From Bifidobacterium coryneforme (GTDB lineage Bacteria > Actinomycetota > Actinomycetes > Actinomycetales > Bifidobacteriaceae): a DNA stretch of 64,000 bases. Positions 3,175 to 8,748 of the stretch are shown in pieces. The translations under genes were made by a program, and so were the position numbers. Where the stretch lies: NCBI RefSeq assembly GCF_000737865.1, contig NZ_CP007287.1, forward strand, positions 1,620,972 to 1,684,971, written 5' to 3'. A model generated the notes under the pieces. That model saw only the letters and a list, made by a program, of their open reading frames with translations. It made no database searches and was not told the DNA's origin. Numbering within the stretch: the first letter of the stretch is position 1; each line of letters starts with the position of its first letter.

Positions 3175-4536
3175 TCAGAGGCTTTCCAGATCCTTGCCCT
3201 TGGTTTCCTGGGCGAAGAGGTAGACAACGGCTCCGATGACCAGGCAGACACCGAAGAAGGTGAAGGCCGTGGTGACGACACCGATGTTGATGTGCTGGGA
3301 GACATAATCCCCGCCGACCAGGAGGCCCATGAAGATGGGGCCGACAATCTTTGCCGTGGCTCCGATACCGTAACCCAGACCCAGACCAGTCGAACGCACA
3401 TCATTGGGGAACTGCTCGCCTCCAAAGGCGTTGAGGATACCGAAGACACCGTCGGCGAAGGTCATGATGACCAGGACGGCGATGTAGAACTGCCAGCCCG
3501 AGTTGTGGAAGAAGGCTGCATAGAAGCAACCCAGGGCACCGATGATGCCGAAGGAGAACATGGTCCAGCGACGGCCGATGACGTCGGCCAGCCAGGCCGA
3601 ACCGAACCTCCCGATGCAGTCCGCCACGGAAACACCCATGAAGAGGTAGGCCACCATCTTGGTGGAGAAACCGAAGGCGTCCTTCATCAGGGTCTGACCC
3701 CAGGATTGGATGGCGAAGGAACCCAGGATGAAGCAGAAGGAACCGACCGAGATGATGATCAACGGCTTCAGGTGCTTGGAGAAGAGCAGGCCGTAGCTGG
3801 CCTTCTGCTCCTGCTCGACCTTGGGAAGGGCACCGACCTGGTCGGTCGGCAGTTCCAGGGCCCACCCCAGGGCCTTGCGGGCATCGTCATCACGCCCGAC
3901 GCTCTGGTAGAACCTTGGTGATTCAGGAACCATGGCCAGCCAGAAAAGAAGCAGGACCGGGATGGCACCCAGCGCCACCAGTATCCGCCAGTTCTCCCCA
4001 ATCACGCTCTGGGCCACCGAGCCGAGCAGAAGGCCGAGGGGGATGAAGACCGAGGCCAGTCCGGAGAGCATGCCGCGCTGCTTGGACGGCACGAATTCCT
4101 GGACGTAGGGGATGGAGATGATGTTCAGACCCCCGACACCGATACCCACGCCGATGCGGAGAACGGCCAGGAGAATCCAGGCTCCATCCGGCAGGAAGAC
4201 CGACAGGGCCGTGAAGACAACGAAGCAGAGCACGCACCACTGGAAGGCGTGCTTGCGTCCGAACCGATCGGCCAGACGGCCCCAGACAATGGAACCGATG
4301 ACCGTGCCCAGACCGGAGCAGGCCAGGATGATACCGGCCGAGACACCGGTCAGATGCCAGGCCGAGGTCAGGAGGGAGACCACGAATCCGATCAGGAACA
4401 TATCGAAGAACTCGGATATGTTCCCGGCTATGGCCAGTCCGATGATGCTTTTCTGATGCCCGGTCAGGGGGCGGGTGTCGATCTGCTCGTAAGCGGTCAG
4501 ACCTCCCCGACCCGCTTGGGCTTGTGTGTCACTCAT
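3175..4536 (-). CDS. MFS transporter, sugar/organic acid porter type
   Basis: About 453 residues with twelve hydrophobic segments. It carries the MFS loop 2-3 signature GRLADRFGRKHAF, the PESPRF motif of sugar porters after TM6, and a second half-repeat ADVIGRRWTM. It should import an unphosphorylated carbohydrate or sugar acid across the cytoplasmic membrane using a cation gradient. The start at 4536 (MSDTQAQ) keeps a normal N-terminus. It is the last gene of a leftward cluster, 44 bases after a PfkB kinase, suggesting import followed by ATP-dependent phosphorylation. Substrate is unknown; the adjacent decarboxylase and lactonase point to a sugar acid or lactone. Confidence 0.88.
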   Translation of the reverse strand: MSDTQAQAGRGGLTAYEQIDTRPLTGHQKSIIGLAIAGNISEFFDMFLIGFVVSLLTSAWHLTGVSAGIILACSGLGTVIGSIVWGRLADRFGRKHAFQWCVLCFVVFTALSVFLPDGAWILLAVLRIGVGIGVGGLNIISIPYVQEFVPSKQRGMLSGLASVFIPLGLLLGSVAQSVIGENWRILVALGAIPVLLLFWLAMVPESPRFYQSVGRDDDARKALGWALELPTDQVGALPKVEQEQKASYGLLFSKHLKPLIIISVGSFCFILGSFAIQSWGQTLMKDAFGFSTKMVAYLFMGVSVADCIGRFGSAWLADVIGRRWTMFSFGIIGALGCFYAAFFHNSGWQFYIAVLVIMTFADGVFGILNAFGGEQFPNDVRSTGLGLGYGIGATAKIVGPIFMGLLVGGDYVSQHINIGVVTTAFTFFGVCLVIGAVVYLFAQETKGKDLESL

Positions 4537-4580
4537 GGTGCGTTCTCTTTCGTAAGTATGCTGAAAGTCGGTTTCGGCTC

Positions 4581-5537
4581 TCAACGGTTGATGTCATCGC
4601 CCAGGGGGATATCGAGTTCATGGGCGCGGATACGGGTCAGGTCGCCCATATGGGTCAGAGCGTATTCGGCCGCCCGCTGGCCCCAGCGCACGCCGCAATC
4701 CACATCATCGGAGAGGAAGCCATGCAGGGTCGCGGCCACAAAGGAGTCACCGGCACCGGGACGGTCAACGACGGGAACCGTGGTGGTCGTGTACTTCTTG
4801 ACCCCCTTGGCGGTATGCAGATAGGGACCGTCCAGATGGTTGGTGGAGATGATGTACTCATTGCCGAAGCGCCGATAGAGCTGCTCGCAGACCTCTTCCC
4901 CACTTCCTTCTATCCCGAAGACGCTCTTGGCGTCCTTGATGGAGCAGAAGAGGATGCGGGCCTTCTCGGCGATGGGTTCCAGGATATGCCGGGCCTGTTC
5001 ACCCGTCCAGAGCTTGCTGCGGAAGTTCACATCCAGGGCGATGTCAATGCCCCGTTGGGCGGCCTGGTCCGCGGCGTAGGTCACCACCTCGGCAGTGGTA
5101 TCGGTCAAGGCTGCGGTGATGCCGGTCAAAAAGACCAGACGGGTATCAAGCATCCGCTCCCAGTCGTAATCGTTCACCCCGGTGGTTCTGAATGGGGTGT
5201 ACTCCCGGTCGTAGATCACGTTGGCCGGCATCGGAGGTTCGCCCGGCTCCATGAAGTAGAGGGCGATACGGCTGGCAGGCTTGCGGACCATGGTGCTCAT
5301 GTCCACCCCCACCGAGCGGTACTCGCTCAGCACATACTCGCCCAGATCACCCTCGGGCAGTGACGAGGTCCAGAGGGTCTTGCGTTGCAACTGGGCCAGA
5401 ACACCGGCCACGTTGGCCTCCGAACATGCCGGGTTCATCAGGACGGAGCGCGCATTCATCAGGCGCTCGCCCCTCCTGACCGTAAGTCTGATCTGACCCT
5501 CGCCAATCGTTGAAAGGTCATAGGTATGCTCTGCCAT
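4581..5537 (-). CDS. PfkB-family carbohydrate kinase
   Basis: A ribokinase/PfkB-fold kinase of 318 residues that transfers phosphate from ATP to a sugar or sugar-acid hydroxyl. The C-terminal signature DRPGAGDSFVAATLHGF near residue 250 contains the catalytic Asp of GAGD and the anion hole. The N-terminal region has the substrate side (NPACSEANVAGVLAQL in place of the usual GG.x.N motif), so the substrate pocket is not standard. AAGGAATACG precedes the ATG at 5537. It sits between the importer and the UlaD-like decarboxylase, which supports a role in activating the imported compound. It resembles 2-keto-3-deoxygluconate kinases, but the exact substrate cannot be read. Confidence 0.85.
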   Translation of the reverse strand: MAEHTYDLSTIGEGQIRLTVRRGERLMNARSVLMNPACSEANVAGVLAQLQRKTLWTSSLPEGDLGEYVLSEYRSVGVDMSTMVRKPASRIALYFMEPGEPPMPANVIYDREYTPFRTTGVNDYDWERMLDTRLVFLTGITAALTDTTAEVVTYAADQAAQRGIDIALDVNFRSKLWTGEQARHILEPIAEKARILFCSIKDAKSVFGIEGSGEEVCEQLYRRFGNEYIISTNHLDGPYLHTAKGVKKYTTTTVPVVDRPGAGDSFVAATLHGFLSDDVDCGVRWGQRAAEYALTHMGDLTRIRAHELDIPLGDDINR

Positions 5538-5811
5538 CGTATTCCTTAGCTTGTTTCACTCGAACCGTATCAGGACAGCCATGTCCTTCTCCGGTCTTTC
5601 CTTGTTCGATCCGTCATGAACGGATCAGATCCAGGTGGACCACCTGCGGTGGTGGCCCACCGGTTCAACCTTCTACTGCCTGGTCGGTCATTGCCCCGCC
5701 GAAGCCCGGCAACTCCGGCAGGGGTTACGGTCCGGCACCGGTGGATCCATCCGGACCACCGGGCCGGAACCGTTCATCCGTACTACGGACGAGCGGAATT
5801 CTCTGGGACTG
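5538..5811. other. Intergenic region with a palindrome inside the catabolic cluster
   Basis: This 274-base gap separates the UlaD-like gene from the kinase gene on the same strand. It holds an inverted repeat GATCCGT-CATGA-ACGGATC (5608-5626) about 70 bases upstream of the kinase start, and several small GC-rich repeats (GGTGGACCACC near 5634-5644). It may carry a second promoter/operator or an attenuator making two transcription units of the cluster. No coding frame is convincing. Confidence 0.4.
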
Positions 5812-6501
5812 TCAGGGCCAGACGCTGTCAATCGTGTCCCGCAACTCGGTCGCCGCCGCCAGCGGGTCGTCAGCCTTGACAATGCCGCGACCCGAGATGA
5901 CCACACCGACAGGAACACCCTCGAAGAAGGGGAGGTCCTTGGCGGTGACGCCACCTGTGACGGTGACCTTGAATCCCATATCATGCAGTTCACGGATGCG
6001 AGCCCTGTCGTTTTCACCCCAGGTCAAGGTTCCTGCGGCCTCGGCATCCCGGGAACGATGAACAATGACCTGGGTGGCACCAAGTTCACGCCACTGCCTG
6101 GCCTGGTCGGAGTCGTACTTCTCCCCGAGTTCAATCTGGACCTCACCACCGAACTCCTGGGCGACCTTGACGACCTGCCCCACCGTGGTCATGCTGGCCC
6201 CGGCCACGACCGAGACCCAGTTGGCACCGGCTTCGAAGCAGGCCCTGGAAATGACCGCTCCGGCCTCGGCGATACGCACATCGGCCAGGATGGTCTTCCC
6301 GGGGTAGAGCGCCCTGATCTCACGGACGGCCTTCAGTCCCTCCGCAATGATCAGGACGGTACCGCACTCGATGACGTCAATCTTGCTGATGGCCGCGTTA
6401 AGAGGCTTCAAGGCAGAAGGCATGTCGAAGGTGTCCAGGGCAATCTGCAACTGCGGCCGCTCCAGGGCTCCCTCGGTGCCCGGCTGGTTCTCCTTCGCCA
6501 T
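5812..6501 (-). CDS. UlaD/HPS-family sugar-phosphate decarboxylase-like (3-keto-L-gulonate-6-P decarboxylase homologue)
   Basis: A 229-residue TIM barrel of the orotidine-decarboxylase suprafamily, close along its length to E. coli UlaD (3-keto-L-gulonate-6-phosphate to L-xylulose-5-phosphate plus CO2). Conserved: Asp23 (ALD), Glu45 (VIECGT), Asp74 (LADVR), the HRSRDAEAAG loop, VTGG and the phosphate-binding SGRGI. Two key positions differ: UlaD Lys64 is Arg76 and UlaD Asp67 is Glu79 (ADVRIAEAG instead of ADAKIADAG). The chemistry may therefore differ, for example an altered decarboxylase or aldolase. Start at 6501 lies five bases after the lactonase-like gene stop, so the two are co-transcribed. 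Confidence 0.85.
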   Translation of the reverse strand: MAKENQPGTEGALERPQLQIALDTFDMPSALKPLNAAISKIDVIECGTVLIIAEGLKAVREIRALYPGKTILADVRIAEAGAVISRACFEAGANWVSVVAGASMTTVGQVVKVAQEFGGEVQIELGEKYDSDQARQWRELGATQVIVHRSRDAEAAGTLTWGENDRARIRELHDMGFKVTVTGGVTAKDLPFFEGVPVGVVISGRGIVKADDPLAAATELRDTIDSVWP

Positions 6502-6506
6502 GGCGA

Positions 6507-7496
6507 TCAGGCCTCCTTGCGGAAGGTGAAGAAGGTGCGGGCGTTGCCAATAAGCAGCTTATCGACGTAGGCGGGATCGAACCCCTCGGCGATCATGCGG
6601 GGGCCGTCCACGGCGGGGTTGTAGTCAACGCCGCTGACCGATCCGTAGACCTTCTGGTAGGAGCGCTTGCCCGAATCGGTGCCCAGGAGAATCCTGTCCT
6701 CGAAGCCATCGTCCTTGAAGGCCTTCAGTTCCATGATCCTGTTGGAATCGGGCTGGTACTTGATGCGGTTGGTACCGTCGATCTCCAGGTAGACGCCCAG
6801 GTCAAGAATCTGTTCCAGGTAGTAGACATCCGCATTGCGCTGGATGTGTCCGATGGCAATCTGATCGGCCGGGACGCCCAGCTCGATGAGGGTCTGGGCC
6901 TGCTCCAGGCCGCAGGTGCCATAGGTGGTATGGGTGTTGATCGGGGCACCGGTCGCAATGGCGGCCTTGGCTGCGGCCTCCATGCACTTGTGCTCGAAGG
7001 GGGTGATCTTGCCGTAAGCAGTGCCGATCTTGATGACACCGGCCTTGTAGGGGCTGCGGTCCACCAGAGGACCCGTGTAGTCGTTGCGGTCAATACCCTC
7101 GGTGATGTCGGCGATGACCAGGTCGGCGATCTGGTCCACACTGTAGCGGTTGATCCAGTGCGACTGGGTCTCCAGGTAGACGTGTTCACGGTGGAAGCCG
7201 GTGGCACCGATGACCTGCAGATGGTCAACGGAGCGGGCCACCTCGACCAGCTTTTCGATATCGCGGCCACAGTTGATCGGGCACATATCGACCACGGTGC
7301 CACCCTGGTCGCTCCAGTTCAGGGAAGCCTTGGCGAAGTACCCGGCCTCGGTCTGGGCCTTCTCGACGGAATCCAGCTGGTGGTCACCATCCAGGTAGAC
7401 CTCTCCGGCCCCGACGCGAATCAGATGGTCATGGCTGTTGACGACACCCAGGGTCCCGGGGTCCACATCTCCGAGGATCGTTCTTGCGAATGCCAT
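6507..7496 (-). CDS. Phosphotriesterase-family metal hydrolase, probable sugar-lactone (phosphate) lactonase
   Basis: About 329 residues of the PTE branch of the amidohydrolase superfamily. The binuclear metal ligands are all visible: HDH near the N-terminus (VVNSHDHLI), the carbamylated Lys in AGVIKIG, His in PINTHTTYG, His in IGHIQRN, and Asp in LLGTDSG. Relatives hydrolyse phosphorylated aldono-lactones (a characterised group acts on D-xylono- and L-arabino-lactone-5-phosphates). The ATG at 7496 has AAAGGAG upstream. It is the first gene of the leftward cluster and faces the SorC regulator, so a lactone step before the UlaD-like enzyme is a reasonable inference. The exact substrate is unknown. 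Confidence 0.85.
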   Translation of the reverse strand: MAFARTILGDVDPGTLGVVNSHDHLIRVGAGEVYLDGDHQLDSVEKAQTEAGYFAKASLNWSDQGGTVVDMCPINCGRDIEKLVEVARSVDHLQVIGATGFHREHVYLETQSHWINRYSVDQIADLVIADITEGIDRNDYTGPLVDRSPYKAGVIKIGTAYGKITPFEHKCMEAAAKAAIATGAPINTHTTYGTCGLEQAQTLIELGVPADQIAIGHIQRNADVYYLEQILDLGVYLEIDGTNRIKYQPDSNRIMELKAFKDDGFEDRILLGTDSGKRSYQKVYGSVSGVDYNPAVDGPRMIAEGFDPAYVDKLLIGNARTFFTFRKEA

Positions 7497-7617
7497 TCGA
7501 ACTCCTTTGTTTGTCTTCTCTGCGGCTGTCGGGCACCACATCCGGCCACCCTATGGCACCGGTGCCCTCGTACAGGGTCCAGGATAGGTAAGGACCAAAC
7601 ACAATGGCAACCCAGGT

Positions 7618-7628
7618 AATGTACATAT
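7618..7628. promoter_or_regulatory. Candidate SorC operator half-site upstream of lactonase operon
   Basis: AATGTACATATG (7617-7628 region) repeats the core of the palindromic site over the sorC start about 117 bases away. It lies 120 bases upstream of the lactonase-like ATG, where an operator for the leftward operon would be expected. Only one half matches the fuller palindrome, so this is a weaker site. Confidence 0.45.
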
Positions 7629-7708
7629 GCTTGCCAGTTCTACTACAACCGGGACCTTCCGGGCAAAAATAGCTGATTTATTCATCAACTGCCCAGTTCT
7701 GTTTTGTC

Positions 7709-7751
7709 TTGCTGGCACCACAAGTACTTGATAAGATGTACATATGTTCAG
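7709..7751 (+). promoter_or_regulatory. sorC promoter with overlapping palindromic operator; leaderless start
   Basis: A -35 TTGCTG (7709-7714), 17-base spacer and -10 TAAGAT (7732-7737) place the transcription start at about 7744, exactly the A of the sorC ATG, so the message is probably leaderless; no ribosome site precedes it. The near-palindrome TGTACATATGTTCA (7738-7751) covers the start point and codon, as an autoregulatory operator would. Confidence 0.6.
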
Positions 7752-8748
7752 CAACGTGCAGCTGATGACCTCCGCACAGGCGCGCGACCGGGTCCAGCTC
7801 CTCCTGAAAATCGCCCGCATGTATTACGAGGACCACATGCTTCAGTCCGAGATTGCGGCAAGGGTCGGGTACTCACGGCCCTCCGTCTCGCGGATGCTCA
7901 AGGAAGCCGAGGACCAGGGCCTGGTCTCCGTCACCATCAGGGACCCCCTGGAGCGGCTGCAAAACCTGGAAAACGAGCTGATAGGCCGTTTCAACCTGCA
8001 CTATGCCAGGGTTTCCGAGCCCCCTTCGGGATGCACGGGCTACGATGTGGTCCCACGCAGCGCCGCGTCCCTCCTGGTGGAACATACCCGGCCCGACTCC
8101 CTCGTTACGGTCTCCAACGGCAATGCCGTGGCCTATACGGTGCGGGAGGTACCGCTCCAGAACTGGGGCAAGACCAACGTGGCGCAGATGATCGGTTCCC
8201 TCTCCCCCAACAACCCCATGACGGATTCGCCGGAGATCTGCAGGATGCTGGCCCAACGCCTGGGAGGCAACTACACCTCCCTGCCCGTACCCATGATTCT
8301 CTCCTCCAAGACCATCGCCAAGGCCATGCTCAAGGAAAAGCAGATTGCCGACACCCTGACCCTGGGCGGCCATGCGGACGTGGCCGTGGTTGGCGTCGGG
8401 TCCGTGGAGGATGGGCGCTCCGGGCATATCTTCCACGATTACGAGAACGCCGACCTGGTTCGGGAGGTGACAGCCCGGAAGGCGGTGGGGCATATCTGCG
8501 GCCACCATATCGACGCCCAGGGCAACCACATCCGCACCAGCCTGTGCGAGCGGACCATATCCATCGACTTTGACCGGCTCAAGCGCATCCCCCTGGTCAT
8601 CGGTGTGGCCTGGGGGCACCAGAAGGTGCCGGGAATACTGGCCTGCCTCAGGGCGGGGCTAATCTCGGCCCTGGCCACCGACAGGGAGACCGCAGAGGGG
8701 ATCCTGGAGCTGGATGACAGGCAAACCGGGGGCAGAAAACGGCAGTGA
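7744..8748 (+). CDS. SorC/DeoR-type sugar-binding transcriptional regulator
   Basis: A 334-residue regulator with an N-terminal helix-turn-helix (YYEDHMLQSEIAARVGYSRPSVSRMLKEAEDQGLV, about residues 27-62) and a C-terminal SorC-type sugar-phosphate-binding domain with a NagB/RpiA-like fold (VSNGNAVAYTV, VGVGSVEDG). Such proteins sense a phosphorylated pathway intermediate and control the adjacent operon. It is divergent from the lactonase-decarboxylase-kinase-importer genes, with a repeated TGTACATATG motif in the shared intergenic region. The start overlaps a predicted leaderless promoter. Regulation of the cluster is inference from layout. Confidence 0.9.
   Translation: MFSNVQLMTSAQARDRVQLLLKIARMYYEDHMLQSEIAARVGYSRPSVSRMLKEAEDQGLVSVTIRDPLERLQNLENELIGRFNLHYARVSEPPSGCTGYDVVPRSAASLLVEHTRPDSLVTVSNGNAVAYTVREVPLQNWGKTNVAQMIGSLSPNNPMTDSPEICRMLAQRLGGNYTSLPVPMILSSKTIAKAMLKEKQIADTLTLGGHADVAVVGVGSVEDGRSGHIFHDYENADLVREVTARKAVGHICGHHIDAQGNHIRTSLCERTISIDFDRLKRIPLVIGVAWGHQKVPGILACLRAGLISALATDRETAEGILELDDRQTGGRKRQ

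Follow-up and report, generated by a model that had tools for sequence, protein, structure and literature searches.

What does a row of five genes allow Bifidobacterium coryneforme to consume? The genes occupy positions 3,175 to 8,748 of a 64,000-nucleotide stretch, hereafter the window (contig NZ_CP007287.1, positions 1,620,972 to 1,684,971), of a genome (G000) that consists of a single contig of 1,755,151 bases. They encode a major facilitator superfamily (MFS) protein, a PfkB-family kinase, a UlaD-like decarboxylase, a phosphotriesterase (PTE)-family lactonase, and a SorC-family regulator. An earlier note, made from the letters alone, had proposed a sugar-acid or lactone pathway different from the ascorbate route of Escherichia coli. 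From the comparisons reported here, all of them computational, we consider it reasonably probable that the cluster forms the main part of an L-ascorbate (vitamin C) utilization regulon that operates without a phosphotransferase system (PTS). A literature search restricted to openly licensed papers and top-ranked results returned no description of the cluster.

All five open reading frames (ORFs) lie where the earlier note had placed them, and Pfam and NCBIfam matches bear out the families. The features are as follows, in window positions, with KDG for 2-keto-3-deoxygluconate and KGPDC for 3-keto-L-gulonate-6-phosphate decarboxylase.

3175..4536, minus strand: putative MFS importer (MFS_1, 165.7 bits); the ORF extends to TTG 4584.
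4581..5537, minus strand: PfkB-family kinase, KDG-kinase-like (PfkB, 84.5 bits).
5538..5811, between the UlaD-like and PfkB genes: gap of 274 bp without a recognized gene, where relatives hold a ulaE gene of about 290 aa.
5812..6501, minus strand: UlaD-like decarboxylase of KGPDC fold, with Arg76 and Glu79 at the positions of E. coli Lys64 and Asp67 (OMPdecase/HUMPS, 106.9 bits).
6507..7496, minus strand: PTE-family lactonase, phospho-furanose lactonase type (PTE, 159.7 bits); the ORF extends to 7541.
7619..7634: SorC operator-like palindrome on the PTE side (score 13.9, with this species and G017 left out of the matrix).
7736..7751: second palindrome of this kind, which overlaps the start codon of sorC (score 23.8).
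7744..8748, plus strand: SorC-family regulator (SorC sugar-binding domain, 190.7 bits), the sole PF04198 protein of the genome.

The MFS gene likely starts at ATG 4536 rather than TTG 4584. The lactonase start is likely ATG 7496 and not 7541, because homology to solved structures begins at ORF residue 16-17; only 5 bp separate this gene from that of the UlaD-like enzyme. The closest NCBIfam group of the MFS protein is aromatic acid/H+ symport, with a score under that group's cut-off. A ulaE remnant was searched for in the 274-bp gap and none was found.

Comparison of genomes gives good support to the unit, to the linkage of its genes, and to its relation to the Ula route. The five genes keep an identical order in 13 of 13 other same-genus neighborhoods and recur together across actinobacteria, so the linkage check proposed in the earlier note came out in favor of a single set. 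Two further genes belong to this unit in most relatives. A UlaE-like gene (about 290 aa) lies between the UlaD-like and PfkB genes in 11 of the 13 neighborhoods, and a UlaF-like gene (about 230 aa) lies beyond the MFS gene in 10; no UlaF was found within the 14 kb examined at L027. The clusters of the present genome, the conspecific G014, and the related G017 contain neither UlaE nor UlaF in cis. Hence, the earlier argument that missing epimerases separate the locus from the E. coli ascorbate route does not hold, given that both genes are part of the cluster in most relatives and probably belong to the same regulon here. Their absence stands for the window itself and fails for the genome, which holds a remote UlaE2-UlaF pair.

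A UlaD-like protein of at least 82% identity occurs in 14 of 27 examined genomes, including the present one; the match in G024 is distant (24%), and the remaining 12 have none. The main PTE appears at 81% identity or more in 24 of 151 sampled genomes of the family, and a UlaD-like protein at E<=1e-30 in 17 of 396 sampled genomes of the order. All seven genes are found in 10 of 10 loci from other genera of the family, counting a SorC in two pieces at L094, and the full set also occurs in L095 and L107-L113. A PTE-alignment scan of species genomes, in which the best 80 of 210 relatives were examined, gave 66 actinobacterial and 14 other loci; this sample overlaps with those of the genus, family, and order (G014, for example, is also L143), and the counts are not independent. 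The seven-gene unit of SorC, PTE, UlaD, UlaE, UlaF, PfkB, and MFS is complete in 51 of the 66 actinobacterial loci, some of which are cut off by contig ends. Per gene, the figures are 62 for SorC, 65 for UlaD, 63 for UlaE, 56 for UlaF, 63 for PfkB, and 60 for MFS. Carriers include members of Bifidobacterium, Bombiscardovia, Actinomyces, Arcanobacterium, Corynebacterium, Cutibacterium, Propionibacterium, Austwickia, and Tessaracoccus. At two of the 65 loci with UlaD, L159 and L182, neither kinase nor PTS was found, and no UlaD was found at L206 and L211. The PTS component EIIC is present in none of the 66 loci, and no EIIC-GAT protein (UlaA-type, PF03611) is encoded anywhere in the present genome, in agreement with the earlier statement that a PTS is missing.

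Variants of the unit were also seen. L096 and L097 carry an additional, diverged seven-gene paralogous set (30-56% identity) in which UlaD reads DIRIARAG, with Arg at both altered positions, and the PTE has His for Tyr280; this set perhaps serves a second substrate. Several loci contain SorC, UlaD, or PTE in two pieces, or a PTE match limited to residues 1-176 without UlaD, namely L094/L158 (B. tissieri), L157 (B. callitrichos), L205 (A. ruminis), and L206 (B. subtile). Apparently these reflect decay or assembly breaks.

Homologues of the lactonase suggest a connection of this unit to ascorbate. At the 14 PTE loci outside the actinobacteria, EIIC adjoins in 12, and UlaD, UlaE, and UlaF are all present in nine. 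L216, for example, has the order PTE, EIIC, EIIB, EIIA, UlaD, UlaE, UlaF; its PTS subunits and those of L212 match ascorbate-PTS models best, yet under those models' cut-offs. Because a homologous PTE lies in ascorbate-type PTS loci, gene context suggests that it replaces the UlaG lactonase, and in actinobacteria PfkB and MFS occupy the place that the PTS has elsewhere. No UlaG-type lactonase was found in the cluster, to which that search was confined. Related descriptions exist for mycoplasmas. In swine mycoplasmas, UlaG alone was described as missing from the ascorbate pathway, and a phosphotriesterase was proposed from gene context as possibly filling the gap, according to the portion consulted of PMC4866288. 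In M. bovis, a phosphotriesterase family gene adjoins ascorbate PTS genes, as stated in the part consulted of PMC5426083.

The active site of the lactonase may accommodate a phosphorylated substrate. Its best solved relative is Mycoplasma synoviae MS53_0025 (PDB 3msr/3ovg; 203.8 bits, with about 41% identity across the aligned region), which shares the metal residues and most phosphate-site residues with the cluster enzyme. Korczynska and colleagues reportedly described MS53_0025 in 2014 as a PTE-family enzyme that hydrolyzes phosphorylated lactones. All six metal ligands, together with K246, Y247, and Y280, are kept in every alignment row that covers them. Three of the five phosphate-site positions are identical to M. 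synoviae and two are Lys/Arg exchanges (Lys217 to R220, Arg275 to K277); we take the roles of these residues to be those of the M. synoviae enzyme. Against the NCBIfam model NF045706, the protein scores 251.4 bits, under the cut-off of 630.

We infer the following route, including the identity of its substrate, the order of kinase and lactonase, the binding and direction of SorC control, and all catalytic activities. The MFS protein would import the ascorbate anion unphosphorylated, and the PfkB protein, proposed here as an ATP-dependent ascorbate (or 3-keto-L-gulonate) kinase, would form L-ascorbate-6-phosphate, a task performed elsewhere by the PTS. The PTE-family lactonase would open this compound to 3-keto-L-gulonate-6-phosphate, as UlaG does elsewhere, and the UlaD-like enzyme would decarboxylate the product to L-xylulose-5-phosphate. 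A UlaE-like and then a UlaF-like epimerase, encoded at the remote locus in this genome, would convert L-xylulose-5-phosphate via L-ribulose-5-phosphate to D-xylulose-5-phosphate for consumption by phosphoketolase, and SorC would control both loci through a common palindrome. A phosphoketolase gene is present in the genome. This scheme retains the earlier idea of a single pathway, in which a compound imported without phosphorylation is handled by a kinase, a lactonase (now one that has a phosphate site), and a decarboxylase to give a pentulose phosphate usable by a phosphoketolase organism.

The choice of ascorbate rests on three considerations. No dehydrogenase was seen among the seven recurring families, additional conserved genes having been looked for only in the ORF lists of a few loci; the substrate may therefore already be at the oxidation level of a 3-keto-hexonolactone such as ascorbate. 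The presence of UlaE and UlaF points to L-xylulose-5-phosphate as the product. Together with the sister lactonases in ascorbate-PTS operons, these features suggest L-ascorbate as the compound. The phosphate site of the PTE argues that the kinase acts before the lactonase. The lack of a dehydrogenase also weakens the general aldono-lactone substrate of the earlier note, and an oxidative aldonate entry was rejected on the same ground. A route from D-isoascorbate through 3-keto-D-gluconate to D-ribulose-5-phosphate could do without epimerases; it was dropped in view of the UlaE and UlaF genes in cis in most relatives.

Known systems share parts of this design. Ralstonia eutropha reportedly uses L-ascorbate without a PTS through other enzymes and intermediates, in work ascribed to Stack and colleagues (2020). 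The E. coli ula regulon (UlaABC PTS, UlaG, UlaD, UlaE, UlaF), as far as the portion consulted of PMC3219644 describes it, has in common with the cluster a divergent regulator, the opening of a lactone, and conversions of UlaD, UlaE, and UlaF type that end in D-xylulose-5-phosphate. The cluster differs by MFS and PfkB proteins for the PTS, a PTE-family protein for the metallo-beta-lactamase-fold UlaG, SorC for the DeoR-family UlaR, and altered UlaD residues. The ascorbate-PTS operons of Mycoplasma (L213, L215-L217, L219, L220, and L222; PMC4866288, in the part consulted) likewise place a PTE-family lactonase beside UlaD, UlaE, and UlaF. However, they contain EIIC and EIIA, lack PfkB and MFS, encode a K/D-type UlaD, and have Arg where the cluster PTE has Lys.

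Several findings weigh against the ascorbate reading and are given below with the explanations that draw on them. The altered residues of the UlaD-like enzyme and the lactonase are the chief ground for doubt. The UlaD-like protein scores 253 bits against the PRK13306 subfamily cut-off of 250, and 221.5 bits for the UlaD equivalog PRK13305, where the cut-off is 294. Its structural model (predicted local distance difference test, pLDDT, 93.7) is closest to E. coli KGPDC (TM 0.91), followed by hexulose-6-phosphate synthase (HPS). The window protein reads DVRIAEAG, and Arg and Glu replace the catalytic Lys64 and Asp67 in 65 of 65 actinobacterial copies. The K/D pair is kept in nine of nine non-actinobacterial copies, and also in every one of the 29 more distant relatives for which a match was obtained, L030 having yielded none in this check. 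Moreover, His136 is Lys in 44 of the 65 actinobacterial copies, with His kept in the window. In the PTE, K277 is Lys in 66 of 66 covered actinobacterial rows and Arg in 14 of 14 others, and the characterized M. synoviae enzyme is said to have been assayed on pentonolactone phosphates.

These lineage-wide exchanges, together with the 60 of 66 loci at which an MFS protein takes the place of an ascorbate-type PTS, would fit a different entry compound. It could be another 3-keto-hexonolactone, or a derivative of ascorbate, that still yields L-xylulose-5-phosphate on decarboxylation, with the altered UlaD and PTE sites marking the new substrate. We regard this explanation as unlikely. The exchanges preserve charge, and the other UlaD residues checked are nearly all conserved: E112, T169, and R192 in 65 of 65 actinobacterial copies, and E33 and R139 in 64. 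The KGPDC-type residues tested are all present in the window protein, and titles of PDB entries name E. coli KGPDC mutants at K64, E112, H136, R139, and T169. The exchange is also confounded with ancestry, in that the R/E pair occurs in actinobacterial copies alone and none of the nine K/D copies is actinobacterial. A UlaD tree, from which L143, L144, and L157 were omitted, has unsettled bootstrap values and long branches, and it neither supports nor rules out a single origin of the R/E pair.

The kinase raises the question of reaction order. Its sequence neighbors are KDG kinases, enzymes that act on open-chain acids, and its scores against the NCBIfam KDG kinase equivalogs are 198.5, 91.6, and 43.8 bits, all under the respective cut-offs of 440, 400, and 400. 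The closest solved folds to its model (pLDDT 90.1) are an uncharacterized PfkB protein and KDG kinases. All 19 kinases aligned keep Y94, the YDR motif at 109-111, N171/R173, and GAGD, whose counterparts in KDG kinases contact the acid. L114 carries SorC, UlaD, UlaE, and PfkB, with no PTE, MFS, or UlaF within 19 kb. These findings would suit a lactone that opens first, through the PTE or spontaneously, followed by phosphorylation of open-chain 3-keto-L-gulonate by PfkB, in the manner of LyxK in the yia route. LyxK belongs to the FGGY kinase family, unlike the PfkB protein of the cluster. The E. coli yiaK-S operon (PlaR/YiaJ regulon; LyxK, SgbH, SgbU, SgbE) provides the precedent, with a cytosolic kinase for the PTS, a KGPDC, and two epimerases; according to the part consulted of PMC6958661, it differs in having no PTE lactonase, a YiaMNO transporter, and an IclR-type regulator. 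We hold the reversed order to be quite unlikely. The phosphate-site positions of M. synoviae are kept or Lys/Arg-exchanged in the PTE, and its PTS-linked homologues must encounter a phosphorylated lactone.

The remote epimerases bear on whether the pathway is complete in this species. With the cluster at 1.62 Mb, a UlaE-like gene (UlaE2, 41% identical to the cluster-type UlaE) adjoins a UlaF-like gene (79%) at about 0.495-0.500 Mb, and another copy of UlaF lies close by. UlaE2 shares 74-79% identity with the in-cluster UlaE of L089-L094 and scores above the L-ribulose-5-phosphate 3-epimerase cut-offs, and UlaF scores above one for the 4-epimerase. A palindrome, ATGAACATATGTTCAT, is present in the gap between SorC and PTE. 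Its consensus was picked by eye. It was compared with 32 such gaps, all from related genomes, the L094 gap being mis-measured because SorC is split there. The best 16-mer agrees with the consensus at 13 or more positions in 26 of the 32 gaps, compared with 0.09% of base-shuffled gaps. The window's own gap lost its best site, which runs into the start of sorC, and so reaches only 11 of 16 positions, a value equaled in 8.6% of shuffles. When 95 kb of the genome were scanned with the matrix, the top four hits were window 7736 (23.8), L034 12912 (16.8), window 7619 (13.9), and L034 12771 (13.5), the two L034 sites lying upstream of UlaE2. The next hits elsewhere score 13.3 and 12.9, so that the two weakest of the four barely stand out by score alone. 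The low scores of the two L034 sites (16.8 and 13.5, with background up to 13.3) count against the ascorbate reading. In G017, the sites upstream of UlaE2 score 24.6 and 24.7. Exactly one PF04198 protein is encoded in each of G000, G014, and G017, and since each genome has a single SorC, the pair is most simply predicted to be under its control. Hence, the remote pair is probably in the same regulon as the cluster, as judged from these sequence features.

Decay of the pathway in this species is the alternative, with the cis epimerases lost and the remote pair serving, for example, L-arabinose or L-xylulose use. The clusters of G000, G014, and G017 indeed lack UlaE and UlaF, and a GH43 gene and a transporter are found close to the remote pair. 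The conspecific G014 (L135) keeps one UlaF and is missing a stretch of about 3.8 kb that holds UlaE2 and lepA; no UlaE-like match was found in it at E<=1e-20. Homologues of the pair also stand behind an FGGY kinase at L137 and L139. Nonetheless, we consider decay improbable. All five ORFs are open, with identities of 99-100% to G014 and 91-97% to G017, and the UlaE2-UlaF pair has two operator-like sites, strong in G017, in genomes with one SorC each.

Other arrangements of these epimerases were observed. In the present genome (L034:10920-16112, about 494.9-500.1 kb), two near-identical direct UlaF copies flank UlaE2 and lepA, and the 3.8-kb loss in G014 is as expected from recombination between them. 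L137 (6251-12121) and L139 (3327-9256) hold a sister cluster of a SorC paralogue, an EIIC-GAT-like membrane protein, an FGGY-type kinase, UlaE2, and UlaF, with strong copies of the SorC-type palindrome; the kinase and membrane-protein families were read from the sequence, and PF03611 also matches the latter. This cluster possibly serves L-xylulose use with an EIIC protein, no EIIA or EIIB being seen adjoining. At L030 (4152-8014, G024), an FGGY-type kinase, a UlaE2-type protein, a distant UlaD/HPS-like protein, and UlaF stand in a row.

That the UlaD-like protein is an HPS, in a cluster for formaldehyde or hexulose phosphate, is barely credible: the HxlA model matches at 142.7 bits, under its cut-off of 200, whereas E112, R139, and T169 are of KGPDC type, UlaD models score higher, KGPDC is the nearest fold, UlaE and UlaF are linked, and no 6-phospho-3-hexuloisomerase (PHI) is among the seven families.

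The ascorbate reading could extend well beyond this species. Whether many actinobacteria share a vitamin C regulon in which an ATP-dependent PfkB ascorbate kinase, a PTE ascorbate-6-phosphate lactonase, and a KGPDC with Arg/Glu for Lys/Asp replace the PTS, UlaG, and UlaD is, in our estimate, evenly balanced. If true, it would assign substrates to four poorly annotated groups, namely the PfkB kinase, the PTE-family lactonase, the MFS importer, and the altered UlaD. It would also predict vitamin C use in the named species of Bifidobacterium, Bombiscardovia, Actinomyces, Cutibacterium, Corynebacterium, and Propionibacterium. Moreover, the altered UlaD would provide a natural test of how much the DxKxxD active site shared by orotidine 5'-monophosphate decarboxylase (OMPDC), KGPDC, and HPS can vary with the chemistry kept.

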